DNA from: a virus | Reading direction: 5' to 3' (one strand) | Length of the DNA: 21,355 bases | Virus record (IMG/VR): IMGVR_UViG_3300027782_000424 | Coordinates: 1-21,355 of that record | Shown here: piece after piece, positions 12,891-19,866 of the stretch | How the letters are laid out: every line of letters begins with the position of its first letter | Position numbering within the stretch: position 1 is the stretch's first letter | Program-made: the position numbers and the translations under genes | The notes under the pieces: model-generated | Database searches by the model: none | What the model saw: the letters and a program-made list of their open reading frames with translations, nothing else | What the model was told of the DNA's origin: nothing

Positions 12891-13376
12891 CTACTGTACT
12901 ACATCTACAAGGGCTCTGGGCGTGAAAACGCAACAATCCGTTGCAAAGTCTCCACCAGCCTCAGGAAACCCAAACCCACACTGCTCTTTATTCCAGCTGG
13001 AACAGTCAGTGCAGTACGTAATTGGACCTGTGCGTGGCGGGTACAACTCCTGGTAGATCTCCTTGTACATAGAGCCCGTCTGGATCAGCGAGATGGACTG
13101 GCGTGATACCCCGTAGGTTTCAGCCAGGATACGTTGGGGCAACTTAGAAGTAATAATTTTTATAGCATCCTCACGACTAACTCTGCGCCATAAGGATTTT
13201 CTAGTTTCGTTGGCATCCCAACGATTTTTGTAGGGCTGTCCTTTACCTTCATCTGTAAAAAATGTCCATCGATATTTACAAACTTGGCACTCAAAGCGGC
13301 GACGTCGTTTACCGCGAACAGTTAAACGACTTTCCAGTAATCTACGATTTTCAGACTTGCAATCAGGACAATCCAT
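12891..13376 (-). CDS. Zinc-ribbon + helix-turn-helix DNA-binding protein
   Basis: 161 residues from ATG 13376; a longer frame from 13511 overlaps the upstream gene out of phase and is rejected. The zinc ribbon at 3-37 has C3-x2-C6 and C30-x2-C33 with a basic hairpin (RLTVRGKRRRRFE). A helix-turn-helix follows at about 65-105 (SREDAIKIITSKLPQRILAE, YGVSRQSISLIQTGSMYKE). A C-terminal Cys box has C122-x2-C125, C133, and C148-C149 within YCTDC...QCGFGFPEAGG...DCCVF. There is no nuclease motif. It could be a phage transcription regulator or a relic of a mobile nuclease that kept only DNA-binding parts. The zinc-ribbon/HTH coding part is visibly more AT-rich than its neighbours. It overlaps the gene before it by 14 nt. 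Confidence 0.75.
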   Translation of the reverse strand: MDCPDCKSENRRLLESRLTVRGKRRRRFECQVCKYRWTFFTDEGKGQPYKNRWDANETRKSLWRRVSREDAIKIITSKLPQRILAETYGVSRQSISLIQTGSMYKEIYQELYPPRTGPITYCTDCSSWNKEQCGFGFPEAGGDFATDCCVFTPRALVDVVQ

Positions 13377-13548
13377 CCAGCTCGTCGGCAATGGCGAGGA
13401 TGCGGTCATAACACTGTTGAGCAGTGTCATTCGGGAATAAATAACCAGCAGCAGCGCGAAGAGCGGCGGCCATGGCATCGACGTTGGCAGCTTCAAAATC
13501 GCCGTAAGCATTCAGCACTGCCTGCGCGGTGGGGGAGAGGTTAGTCAT
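13363..13548 (-). CDS. Short helical early protein
   Basis: 61 residues. The pattern LSPTAQAVLNAYGDF...VDAMAAALRAAAGYLFPND...CYDRILAIADELDGL recalls a family of short proteins, common in cyanobacteria and their phages, with 'SPAAQAVLNA' and 'AAALRAAA' segments and no known function. The ATG overlaps the stop of the 32-aa gene (ATGA). Confidence 0.75.
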   Translation of the reverse strand: MTNLSPTAQAVLNAYGDFEAANVDAMAAALRAAAGYLFPNDTAQQCYDRILAIADELDGLS

Positions 13549-16319: not shown

Positions 16320-16640
16320 TTATGTTGTGGGCACCCCAAGCTGCTCGGGGCTGTAGGCAGTAAGGACGCAGACATCGGCACCTTGGCGTAGGCACTGCCC
16401 CACGGTGTAGTGGAAGATGTGCTCCGCCTCGTCACACTCGTCGATCTGGAACTGATCCACCTCCACAGGGCGGCCAGCCCGGTACCAAGTCAGCCGCACG
16501 ATGGAGTGGATCTCATCGGGCAGCGGACCCGTGGTAAAGCCCAGCGTGGGACGCCGGGGCGGTTTGGGCTGGGACTTACTGGCCATGAGGAAAAGTAGCC
16601 AGCTGGCTACACGCATCAGTCCAAGGTAGAGGTTAGGCAT
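16320..16640 (-). CDS. Unknown early protein, N-terminal hydrophobic segment or internal start
   Basis: 106 residues from ATG 16640, which overlaps the HNH stop by 8 nt (ATGCCTAA). The first 20 residues (MPNLYLGLMRVASWLLFLMA) are hydrophobic and could be a membrane anchor. A second candidate start, Met20 (16583), gives a soluble 87-residue protein beginning MASKSQPKPPRRP. The body (DEIHSIVRLTWYRAGRPVEV then a DECDEAEHIFHYTVGQCLRQ helix) looks like a compact alpha/beta domain. The overlap favours the longer start. Function unknown. Confidence 0.65.
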   Translation of the reverse strand: MPNLYLGLMRVASWLLFLMASKSQPKPPRRPTLGFTTGPLPDEIHSIVRLTWYRAGRPVEVDQFQIDECDEAEHIFHYTVGQCLRQGADVCVLTAYSPEQLGVPTT

Positions 16641-17364
16641 CAGTAAATTCGGTGTAGTTCACCAGGCGGTCGGATTTCCCACGGTTACAGTCTGAGCATA
16701 AAGTTCTTAAATTGTGTAACTCGTTACTACCACCTTTGGAAACTGGAATTGTGTGATCTACCTCAAGAACGGCTCCTAGTGCAGGTGACGCCCCGCAGTC
16801 CATGCACCGAAAACCGTCTCTTTCCAGAACTTTATGTCGTGTACACACTGAAACATTGCGGTATTTATTCATAGCACGAAAATACTTTTTAGCGATTTTT
16901 CCACCTGATACATTATCAGATTTTGCAAAAGCATTAGATGAAATTCTGATACCCGAGTATTCAAATATATCTTTAAACGCTTTACCTAAAAAGTATATGT
17001 GATCTTCTCCAAAAGCGTTAGAACTTTTACCTGACATGTGAAGAACCCAATCAAAAATATCTGCCATACAGCTGATTTCACCAAAATCGATTGAGTAGTA
17101 ACAAGCCTCGTGGTACAACTCGTAAACCTCTTTGCTGTCAACTTCTACACAGCGTAGTTCCCACGGACCCCACGTTTTATACAGATTGTCGGCACCCTTT
17201 ACAAAAGGAAAATATGAATTTATACGGTCTTGTGCAGTCTGTAACGAATACACGGGTGTTTTTTCCTGTTGATCTAGAACAATTTGTGTGTGAGGATTGG
17301 AGTGCGTAGGCATAGGATCTTCGGAGCAGGCTCCGGGCGTAGGTGAACGGGGCAATGCGGCCAC
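16633..17364 (-). CDS. HNH endonuclease (McrA-like core) with unknown N-terminal domain
   Basis: 243 residues from GTG 17364, or 226 from ATG 17313 (MPTHSNPHTQ), which looks at least as good. The C-terminal HNH core (long-form numbering) has C187-x2-C190, VDHTIPVSKGG with Asp203 and His204, Asn218 in 'LHNLR', C223-x2-C226 and N227. The N-terminal 150 residues (TAQDRINSYFPFVKGADNLY, then many aromatic and acidic residues) do not match a family I know and may set specificity. The gene is clearly more AT-rich than the primase-helicase gene before it, a sign of separate origin. It lies just downstream of the helicase gene behind a GC-rich hairpin, and overlaps the next gene by 8 nt. Confidence 0.85.
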   Translation of the reverse strand: MAALPRSPTPGACSEDPMPTHSNPHTQIVLDQQEKTPVYSLQTAQDRINSYFPFVKGADNLYKTWGPWELRCVEVDSKEVYELYHEACYYSIDFGEISCMADIFDWVLHMSGKSSNAFGEDHIYFLGKAFKDIFEYSGIRISSNAFAKSDNVSGGKIAKKYFRAMNKYRNVSVCTRHKVLERDGFRCMDCGASPALGAVLEVDHTIPVSKGGSNELHNLRTLCSDCNRGKSDRLVNYTEFTDA

Positions 17365-17421: not shown

Positions 17422-19866
17422 TTAGCCCCAGAAGTTGGTGGCCTCCTGGATCAGCTGCTCCAACTCTTGAGGGGTGCGTTCGTCACGTGCGGGGAATTCC
17501 TCTCGCGTGAATATAGAACTGTCCTGCTGTCCCAAACTCTGAGAACCCTTGCGGGGCAAGGTATCTGCCGGATTCACCTGTCCTAGTTTGTCCCGTTTTG
17601 TCCCAACCTGTCCTTTTGCTGTCCTAGGAGCAGGTTCAGGACAACTTGAGACAGAATCGGACAAAACGGGACAACCACTTTCCTCAGATCCAGCTCCAGC
17701 ACTGGTTTTTTCTTCTTTAGGACAGGTACTACCTCCTCCCCCCCTGTGCGCGAGGACTGCTAAGTACCTCTTGCTGGAACGATCTCCCTCAGCAACCACC
17801 AATCCCCGATCAACCAAGCGCTGGAGCGACTTGGCAATGGCGCTGACACTGCCCCCCAGTAACGGGTCGGCATTCAACTCCCCTTTTGTCATCGGTACGC
17901 CCTTGGTACGGAGGCGTTGGAGCACCCGATCAATGATCGAAGCAGGACTGGCGGAATCGACCCCATCCACAGGAGGCAGATCCTGCAGCGAGAAAGTCAG
18001 ATCCTCCTTCTGGCGCAAGATCAGCTGCTTGCCCTCATTGCCCTCGCGGCTCTTGCCAATGGTGATAAGCCGCGCAGAGGCCCCTACACGCTCCAGCTCG
18101 GCCTTCTCCGGGCGTCGGATGCCCCAAGACTCATCCACGGCATCCTGGAGCGCTGAGGTGCCCCTGAAGTCGCCAGTCTTGGATGCGTGGTGGATGAAGA
18201 CGATGGTGGTTGCGGGGAAACTCTCCCCGTTCTCAGCGCTGTACCAGTAGATCGGCTCGGCATACTCGGCCTTGTTCTGGTCAAAAGCACACCCCCGCAT
18301 ACAGGCCGTAACCGAGTCCCACACCACGAGCTTGGGCTGGTGCTCTTCGATCTGTTGGATGAACCACGGATACCAAAGCATCGAAACTTTGTTCCGCACA
18401 ATCACAGGATCCTCAGAGGTGAAGTCCAAATCCTGAAACTGCTTACGAATACGGCGACTGTTCTGGTCCCCGTTCAGCCAAAGCACCGTGCCTTGTTCAA
18501 CTGGAACCTCCTGTCCTCGGACAGAAAAAGGCGTTCCCCTAGCAATGTGCTGAGCCAGAGTCAACACAGCCATGGTTTTGCCGCAACCACCGCGACCGTG
18601 CATTAACACGGTTCCAGGCTTAGGTAACAACTCTGGAATCAAGTACTCAATCGGAGTTTCTTCCGTAGCAAAAATTTCTTGCAAGGTGCCCCCATTGGAT
18701 CCACGACGAAACTCCTGATCGGCAATGAGCAGCCGCACAACAGCTGCTGCCTCGCGGTAGCCAGCTTCCTGGGCAATTTCATGCAGTTTGTGCTGCACTT
18801 CAGACGGGTTAGGCAGTTTCATGGCTGCCTCAGCTCGCTTGACGATTTCTACGTGCGAAAGACCAGCATTACGAAACCGCTGCACCCGATCCACCTCAAC
18901 ATCAGCAACCACCTTCCGCAGATCCTCGGACAACCACAACCGGCCAGGCATCTGCTGATCTGCCATCCAAAAGAGCGTCCCAAGGCTCACAGAACCGCGC
19001 TTAAAGCTCTTCCAGACGGCTTCGCAGGGGTTGGAACCACCAGACCACTCATCACTGAATTCGGGATCCTCAGCAGACCAGGCAGACCACAACGTCAAGC
19101 CCAGATCAGTGGGCAGCTCGCTGTGGATCGCCATGCCCACCTTCACCCACTGATCCCGGCTACCAGCACCCTGCCCTGGGATGAACTTCAAAGCTGATTG
19201 GATGATCTCAGCAACCTCACCTGGATCCCGATCTGAGAAATCAAGGGCCTTACGGTTTTTGATAAAGCCGCCATCAACAACACCTTTTCCACAGGCATCA
19301 CGCATCTCAGCCAGCAACCATTCAGGTGCTTCTGGGACAGCCGTGAGATCCCCTTCAAAGTGATAGTGACCCTCTGGAGCCTTTCCATCACTGGAGCCCG
19401 GATACGCCCCGTAGATGACCCCCTGACGGCCCCAGAGCACCTCGTAGCCAGCGCCCGTATCAGACAACCCAATGCCCCGCACATGGCCCCACAGAGCCTC
19501 TGGGACACGGAACAGGTACTTGGCAGCGTTGCCTTTAGTAGACGTAACGACTGGAGCACCATCCAAGGTGTTACCCCAACCCTTTTTCAAACGGGCAAGG
19601 TTGCGATCCACGTCCAGGATCACAAGGCCATTGCTCCTAGCCCCAGTAAAAACGCCAACTGCCTGGAACACCGCAGGCTTACGAACGATCTGGAGCGCAA
19701 CGTCTCCAGGCCCCATCACGACATGGTGCGATTTCTCCAGGGGCGTCTTGCCCTTGCTTTCCTTACCAGAGTGCAAATGCGACCCTTTGACGTAAATCGG
19801 TGCATATGCACCACCTTGAGGCAGCTGGTGAACGAACGCCAGCAACTCTTGCGACTTCTGAGACAC
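17422..19866 (-). CDS. Replicative primase-polymerase / helicase
   Basis: 814 residues. The N-terminal Prim-Pol domain (about 15-190) has GVFTGARSNGLVILDVD (71-87) with metal ligands Asp85 and Asp87, and the YEVLWGRQGVIYG strand pair. A primase C-terminal (PriCT_2-like) domain follows (about 215-305). A RecA-like helicase domain (about 405-590) has Walker A GRGGCGKT (424-431), Walker B LVVWD (513-517) and FIHHASKTGDFRGTSAL (557-573), as in RepA/AAA_25 helicases. A winged helix at about 645-705 is followed by a disordered Pro/Ser/Lys linker and a short C-terminal helix. It would prime and unwind DNA for the family A polymerase. GTG start with a good Shine-Dalgarno. The linker codes through a phased DNA repeat array (17579-17673). 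Confidence 0.93.
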   Translation of the reverse strand: MSQKSQELLAFVHQLPQGGAYAPIYVKGSHLHSGKESKGKTPLEKSHHVVMGPGDVALQIVRKPAVFQAVGVFTGARSNGLVILDVDRNLARLKKGWGNTLDGAPVVTSTKGNAAKYLFRVPEALWGHVRGIGLSDTGAGYEVLWGRQGVIYGAYPGSSDGKAPEGHYHFEGDLTAVPEAPEWLLAEMRDACGKGVVDGGFIKNRKALDFSDRDPGEVAEIIQSALKFIPGQGAGSRDQWVKVGMAIHSELPTDLGLTLWSAWSAEDPEFSDEWSGGSNPCEAVWKSFKRGSVSLGTLFWMADQQMPGRLWLSEDLRKVVADVEVDRVQRFRNAGLSHVEIVKRAEAAMKLPNPSEVQHKLHEIAQEAGYREAAAVVRLLIADQEFRRGSNGGTLQEIFATEETPIEYLIPELLPKPGTVLMHGRGGCGKTMAVLTLAQHIARGTPFSVRGQEVPVEQGTVLWLNGDQNSRRIRKQFQDLDFTSEDPVIVRNKVSMLWYPWFIQQIEEHQPKLVVWDSVTACMRGCAFDQNKAEYAEPIYWYSAENGESFPATTIVFIHHASKTGDFRGTSALQDAVDESWGIRRPEKAELERVGASARLITIGKSREGNEGKQLILRQKEDLTFSLQDLPPVDGVDSASPASIIDRVLQRLRTKGVPMTKGELNADPLLGGSVSAIAKSLQRLVDRGLVVAEGDRSSKRYLAVLAHRGGGGSTCPKEEKTSAGAGSEESGCPVLSDSVSSCPEPAPRTAKGQVGTKRDKLGQVNPADTLPRKGSQSLGQQDSSIFTREEFPARDERTPQELEQLIQEATNFWG
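17579..17673. repeat. Phased TGTCC box array in two opposed arms
   Basis: TGTCC starts at 17579, 17589, 17599, 17609 and 17620 on the plus strand, then on the minus strand as GGACA at 17639, 17659 and 17669, with one variant (AGACA) at 17649. Spacing is 10 bp except once 11. Flanks often continue as TGTCC[CT]NNTT. Outer arms contain a perfect 16-bp inverted repeat, TTGTCCCGTTTTGTCC (17588-17603) against 17659-17674, and inner arms TGTCCT/AGGACA. Extra boxes lie at 17520, 17528 and 17720. Because the period is 10, each copy falls in a different codon phase. Confidence 0.8.

Follow-up and report, generated by a model that had tools for sequence, protein, structure and literature searches.

The question raised by this locus is whether a viral replication gene carries, within its own coding sequence, the DNA site on which its product acts. 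The window, by which we mean the whole stretch of 21,355 nucleotides that was analysed (positions 1 to 21,355 of IMG/VR record IMGVR_UViG_3300027782_000424), contains a primase-helicase gene in which the initial annotation had described a two-armed array of the pentamer TGTCC. We conclude that this array probably acts in cis as a platform bound by the product of the gene that contains it, most likely a replication origin and helicase-loading site, with both binding and origin activity being inferred.

The gene and the parts of its product are as follows.

17422..19866, minus strand: 814-aa replication gene (Pfam; PHROG matches to DNA polymerase/primase and to primase-helicase)
aa 69-183, minus strand: Prim-Pol domain (Pfam)
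aa 222-302, minus strand: PriCT_2 domain (Pfam)
aa 400-566, minus strand: AAA_25 RepA-like helicase domain (Pfam)
17734..17961 (aa ~636-711), minus strand: winged-helix domain, the proposed reader of the boxes (AlphaFold2, Foldseek and weak Pfam wHTH matches)
17806..17847 (aa 674-687), minus strand: recognition helix, with co-varying residues S675, A676, A678 and Q682 (AlphaFold2 and co-variation)
17770..17787 (aa 694-699), minus strand: wing loop, with co-varying residues D695, S698 and K699 (AlphaFold2 and co-variation)

The domain content recognised by Pfam (Prim-Pol, PriCT_2 and AAA_25) is that of a replication initiator, and these domains are followed along the protein by the winged helix, the array-bearing linker and a C-terminal tail. 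AlphaFold2 predicts the winged helix with helices at aa 644-655, 661-666 and 674-687 and strands at 690-693 and 700-703 (pLDDT about 80-86), placing residues 675, 676, 678 and 682 on the third helix and residues 694-699 in the wing. Nearly all top Foldseek matches of the domain are winged-helix proteins, the centromere binder AspA among them. DNA comparison found no named phage relatives of the window, and a search of bacterial genomes found no close relative of the gene, only a single 69-aa fragment match at 39%.

The 3' part of the gene holds 11 exact TGTCC boxes and one variant between 17520 and 17724, arranged in two arms that mirror each other.

17520..17524, plus strand: additional TGTCC box, not part of the mirror set, at 8 bp from the outer box; retained by many type A relatives (described below)
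17528..17532, plus strand: outer box of the left arm, 51 bp from the inner row
17579..17624, plus strand: inner row of the left arm, with TGTCC at 17579, 17589, 17599, 17609 and 17620
17626, no strand: mirror centre of the two arms (mean of partner positions; mirror test in relatives)
17639..17673, minus strand: inner row of the right arm, with GGACA at 17639, 17659 and 17669 and the variant AGACA at 17649
17720..17724, minus strand: outer box of the right arm, 51 bp from the inner row
17588-17603 and 17659-17674, no strand: perfect 16-bp inverted repeat (sequence)

The mirror partners 17528/17724, 17579/17673, 17589/17663 and 17609/17643 share the common centre at 17626. The five plus-strand boxes at steps of 10-10-10-11 and the four minus-strand boxes (one of them the variant) at 10-10-10 lie where the initial annotation had placed them; its description was correct for the inner rows and missed the outer boxes at 17528 and 17720 and the box at 17520. 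The perfect 16-bp inverted repeat that it reported also exists, but it pairs boxes 2-3 of one arm with the final two of the opposite arm and does not involve the outermost boxes; its centre at 17631 is displaced by one box step from the dyad at 17626. Over the whole window TGTCC occurs 47 times against 41 expected, which is no enrichment, and the clustering of the motif, not its overall frequency, is the special feature.

Consecutive boxes occupy different reading frames of the gene, and all three frames are used. When the encoded stretch was recoded with synonymous codons 50,000 times, the recoded versions held a mean of 3.2 and a maximum of 9 boxes against the 11 observed, so that none reached the observed number, and at most three phased steps against five. 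The earlier argument that protein selection is insufficient to account for the repeat is upheld by both results, and the computation demonstrates that selection acts on the array at the DNA level.

Conservation was assessed in 118 non-redundant genes obtained from four protein scans of viral contigs, with protein identities of about 58-100%. Every one of these relatives carries 4-13 boxes within the last 345 nt of the gene. Box density is 18-39 per kb in the array region versus 0-2.4 per kb in the remainder of the gene, and phased TGTCC pairs are almost confined to the array locus in the 40-59 kb contigs of relatives. The initial annotation had named two outcomes that would refute it, relatives without boxes and an equal density elsewhere; both were tested and neither occurred, the boxes being present in 118 of 118 genes while the linker protein changes. 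The linker varies in both length and sequence, and the conserved property is therefore the DNA spacing.

Two main arrangements are found among the relatives, both mirror-symmetric: type A, with arm steps of 51-10-10-10-(11), and type C, with arm steps of 45-16-(10) and alternating orientation. A third group (L161, L163 and L166) combines the two, and in its right arm the outer box is followed by a box of opposite orientation at 44 and by boxes of its own orientation at 61, 71 and 81. Steps within an arm are fixed and the centre varies from 8 to 103 bp, describing rigid arms about a flexible centre. Distances between boxes of the same orientation are best fitted by a period of 10.20 bp (R = 0.744, n = 609), which bears out the proposal that the boxes of an arm face the same side of the helix. 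Array, symmetry, phasing and conservation are thus established computationally. Six boxes per arm occur only in the fullest case, L125, with 3-5 elsewhere, and for this reason a hexamer-matching box count is not used as evidence.

The box itself consists of TGTCC and about six further bases (about 11 bp in all), alike within a genome and differing between genomes. Bases 6-11 are coherent within a genome (agreement at base 6 of 0.85 versus 0.60 when shuffled among genomes), and agreement upstream of TGTCC is barely above the shuffled level. Changes were mapped on a tree of residues 1-600, and 338 protein columns were ranked by their co-change with the box bases. Residue 678 changes 27 times, 13 of them on branches on which base 6 also changes (p = 2.4e-7); it ranked first of the 338 for base 6 and took second place for base 7. 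Base 9 was led by residue 675, and wing residues 698 and 699 took ranks 1 and 3 for base 8; residue 685, a variable neighbour, showed no association (rank 224). The pairings are simple: K678 accompanies TGTCCC followed mostly by C, R678 with Q682 accompanies TGTCCCA, R678 with D or E682 mostly TGTCCG, G678 TGTCCT, and Q or T678 TGTCCA. The same residue classes pair with the same bases again in different clades.

As a control, association with box bases was followed along the gene, where it climbs gradually toward the 3' end (medians 0.54, 0.64, 0.99, 1.00 and 1.99), and part of the co-variation may therefore be linkage of neighbouring sequence. Within the winged helix, DNA-facing columns have a median association of 4.6 versus 1.9 for the others (one-sided p = 0.026; the set was partly chosen post hoc). 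The co-change of winged helix and box is a computed result; that the gene's own product would bind the array is a strong inference from it, made from sequences and without binding data. Binding by the 87-aa RHH protein or other HTH proteins, which had also been raised, is unsupported. The box sequence changes in step with the DNA-reading domain of the enzyme, and therefore the gene very probably contains the site at which its product starts genome replication.

Arrays of this kind are not restricted to relatives of the window gene. Contigs were also scanned, independently of any protein, for triplets of phased TGTCC boxes, a design that favours TGTCC. Among the matches listed that have at least seven boxes, many are located within the 3' end of a gene for a replication helicase or primase, or immediately behind it, and these genes are of several kinds: AAA_25, VapE, D5_N/Toprim, DUF927 with a Cch HTH, DUF3987 and DnaG-type. 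About half of the listed matches have only 3-4 boxes and could have arisen by chance or as simple repeats (e.g., L022 and L026). The array lies inside the gene in the clade of the window; in the genes of other phage AAA_25 helicases, comparable arrays immediately follow the stop codon and are built from boxes of their own (TGTCCC, GGTAACA or GGCGGAAGT). One AAA_25 helicase was followed through its relatives without selection by box: they carry GGTAACA arrays after the stop together with a changed C-terminal helix-turn-helix, and the repeats of more distant ones are GGCGGAAGT or AAGTGGGGGT. On these grounds TGTCC is rejected as a universal signal, and the varied boxes indicate a common theme in which an initiator helicase has boxes of its own at the 3' end of its gene, TGTCC being one box type. 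The arrangement is not universal: no obvious array was seen after the ATPase gene in the cultured phages S-CBS4, Pam2 and Eleri, which encode related ATPases.

Several individual arrays were recorded in the same survey. The AAA_25 primase-helicases of L387-L399 are 78-80% identical to that of L110, and in L387-L399 the boxes downstream of the stop codon have changed from GGGACA to GGTAACA along with the C-terminal helix-turn-helix, a natural specificity switch. In L383, L387, L066 and L408, the arrays after the helicase gene additionally hold a perfect, G+C-rich hairpin whose short loop is AT-rich (e.g., CCCCCCCCTAAAGGGGGGGG) and which may serve unwinding or priming. L034 (5777-5998) has, immediately behind a helicase gene of the VapE type, a family different from that of the window, a perfectly mirror-symmetric TGTCC array with steps of 9, 41, 12, 11, 10, 10, 11, 18, 11, 10, 11, 12, 41 and 9. 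The cultured Microcystis phage Mae-Yong1326-1 (L410, 3634-3900) carries ACTGGCGC-type boxes in both orientations after a RecA-family ATPase gene and is a possible test system. At L105 (2163-2249) and L119 (4178-4253), 8-9 GGACA boxes stand in one orientation at 10-bp steps, and no replication helicase was recognised alongside.

The proposed mechanism, in which direct binding, origin activity, the two rings, opening and priming are all inferred, would begin with the winged helix upstream of the linker reading the box of about 11 bp, in which TGTCC is followed by about six bases set by the recognition helix and the wing. With the boxes of each arm on one DNA face, on a 10.2-bp grid at 0, 51, 61, 71, 81 and 92, the winged helices of several subunits could line up along that face. 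The two mirror arms and the flexible centre would then set two groups of subunits head to head, and two RepA-like helicase rings may be loaded from the two arms. DNA would be opened at the array, and the Prim-Pol domain would be brought in to prime on the opened DNA. Initiator and origin would evolve and be exchanged together, because both are one DNA stretch.

The core claim of the initial annotation, an iteron-like array within the gene of its presumed user, is supported (118 of 118 relatives; co-change with the winged helix); which of the functions it offered applies, origin, loading site or operator, is not shown directly. Origin or loading function is favoured over an operator because of the helicase context and because other helicases have 3'-end arrays, and it rests, by analogy, on the enzyme type and on the precedents of SaPI Rep/Cch2, lambdoid O and pRN1. 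Cumulative GC skew, put forward earlier as a check near the array, shows no switch there in seven long relatives and lends an origin no support. A strong AT-rich unwinding element was likewise not found; A+T content increases only modestly, to about 0.5, in the gaps next to the inner boxes.

It is unlikely, yet conceivable, that the enzyme binds the array for a regulatory purpose (a transcription block, autoregulation or control of downstream genes) and not for initiation. In favour of such a role, the array sits at the gene's 3' end, just before the next same-strand genes, and boxes spaced by 10 bp along one face would fit a repressor that assembles cooperatively into a filament. However, no promoter-like site above chance was found in or beside the array (sigma-70 type only), the array is more than 2 kb from the start of its own gene, and the following gene varies (11 unrelated groups among 49) while the array persists. 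An operator role is less likely because of this lack of a promoter signal and the unrelated downstream genes; similar arrays also follow other replication helicases.

We give the same low weight to a second possibility, that selection acts on a stem-loop or cruciform, of the sort proposed for the pRN1 origin (PMC4234260), and that the boxes merely result from the inverted arms. As single strands, the arrays fold much better than shuffled sequences (z of -5.4 for the window, -5.3 for L174 and -5.1 for L125), and mirrored bases outside the boxes pair at 0.38-0.45 versus 0.23-0.25 in the control; a pRN1-like hairpin contribution is therefore possible. pRN1 ORF904 also shares the outline of an AEP primase, a helicase and a C-terminal winged helix, with a stem-loop origin downstream of the gene (PMC4234260). 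A hairpin, however, needs neither direct repeats with a 10.2-bp period within an arm nor box bases that track the recognition helix, and pairing between boxes is weak in type A.

Somewhat more doubtful still is that the array is a site for another host or phage protein, for partition or packaging, with the co-variation being merely block exchange of the 3' end of the gene. The gradual climb of association along the gene and the existence of winged-helix centromere binders such as AspA would be compatible with this, but the DNA-facing columns of the winged helix stand out (with the caveat of a partly post hoc set), their variable neighbour 685 is unassociated, and the same residue class-base pairings recur in different clades. 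A protein-level or chance repeat, in which a low-complexity linker happens to encode TGTCC, is rejected with near certainty by the frame and recoding tests and by the conservation of spacing across 118 genes despite differing linkers, even though the linker looks disordered and is rich in GQ, CP, GT and DK dipeptides.

The genes next to the array were also noted. An HNH endonuclease gene (16633-17364) starts 57 bp after the helicase stop and adjoins the array; its region is AT-rich, with GC down to 0.34. Only 4 of 49 representatives have an HNH gene here, L123 (which matches the window gene), L140, L146 and L148, and in most the gene found at 16320-16640 of the window directly follows the helicase. 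The HNH gene looks like a mobile insertion beside the presumed origin. In L124 and L133 a gene for a small ribbon-helix-helix-like protein directly follows the array gene, where other relatives carry different genes. Elsewhere in the window, an ORF at 12891-13511 encodes an NrdR-like zinc ribbon and then a helix-turn-helix-like stretch, possibly a transposase- or HNH-related DNA-binding protein.

Individual parts of the array system have precedents. The iterons bound by lambdoid O are situated midway along its own gene, and added iterons add residues to the protein (PMC7466680). The window array likewise consists of repeated boxes within the coding sequence of an initiator; O, however, is neither helicase nor primase and depends on P and host DnaB/DnaG, whereas the window product has both domains (Prim-Pol and AAA_25), and Pfam finds no O-like domain in the 814-aa protein. 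Lambda has four iterons (Stx phages six) and an AT-rich tract, with no two-armed mirror array, and the window differs also in its short boxes, presumably set by a winged helix. SaPI Rep and SCCmec Cch2 use a C-terminal domain to bind short iterons that lie immediately downstream of their own genes (PMC7581432). Shared features are an initiator helicase, a C-terminal domain that binds double-stranded DNA and 3'-end iterons, with two hexamers proposed; the window protein, too, is a helicase with a predicted C-terminal winged helix and boxes at the 3' end of its own gene. Its helicase family is not theirs: their class, in which Cch2 has been compared with MCM and SaPI Rep, is 3'-5', and the iteron is AAGTG. 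Their array lies outside the gene and the primase is separate, whereas in the window AAA_25 is fused to Prim-Pol and a mirror array lies inside the gene.

In pRN1, ORF904 combines an AEP primase, an SF3 helicase and a winged helix, with a stem-loop origin after the gene (PMC4234260). Primase, helicase and C-terminal winged helix in one protein and an origin at the 3' end of the gene are common to both systems; the differences are a 100-nt stem-loop without iterons, located downstream of the gene, and an SF3 helicase instead of an AAA_25/RepA-like one. RSF1010 has a RepA-class hexameric helicase, a dedicated primase and an iteron oriV, with RepA, RepB' and RepC as three separate proteins, and its iterons, which are located outside genes, are bound by RepC and not by the helicase. 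It resembles the window in combining a RepA-class helicase, a primase and iterons, and differs in its separate proteins and its RepC-bound iterons outside genes. RSF1010 has been named as a similar system (PMC4234260). No description of such arrays for AAA_25 phage primase-helicases was found in the open-access literature, subscription journals being mostly uncovered.

A broader proposition, to which we assign even chances, is that of one-gene replicons: a widespread class of phage primase-helicases with a mirror-symmetric, phased origin for double-ring loading in or after their own gene, in which a winged-helix code (residues 675, 678 and 682 and the wing) sets the box and origin and initiator diverge as one unit. 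A one-gene replicon tool could also be built around an origin that lies within its initiator gene. The rigid arms and flexible centre make head-to-head loading of two RepA-like rings directly testable. The natural series of residue and box changes is a ready test of how initiator specificity may change without loss of the origin. For most environmental phages no origin is known; with initiator and site occurring side by side here and linked by a sequence code, origins could be predicted from sequence in hundreds of uncultured phages, and such predictions are testable with one protein domain and a short DNA.
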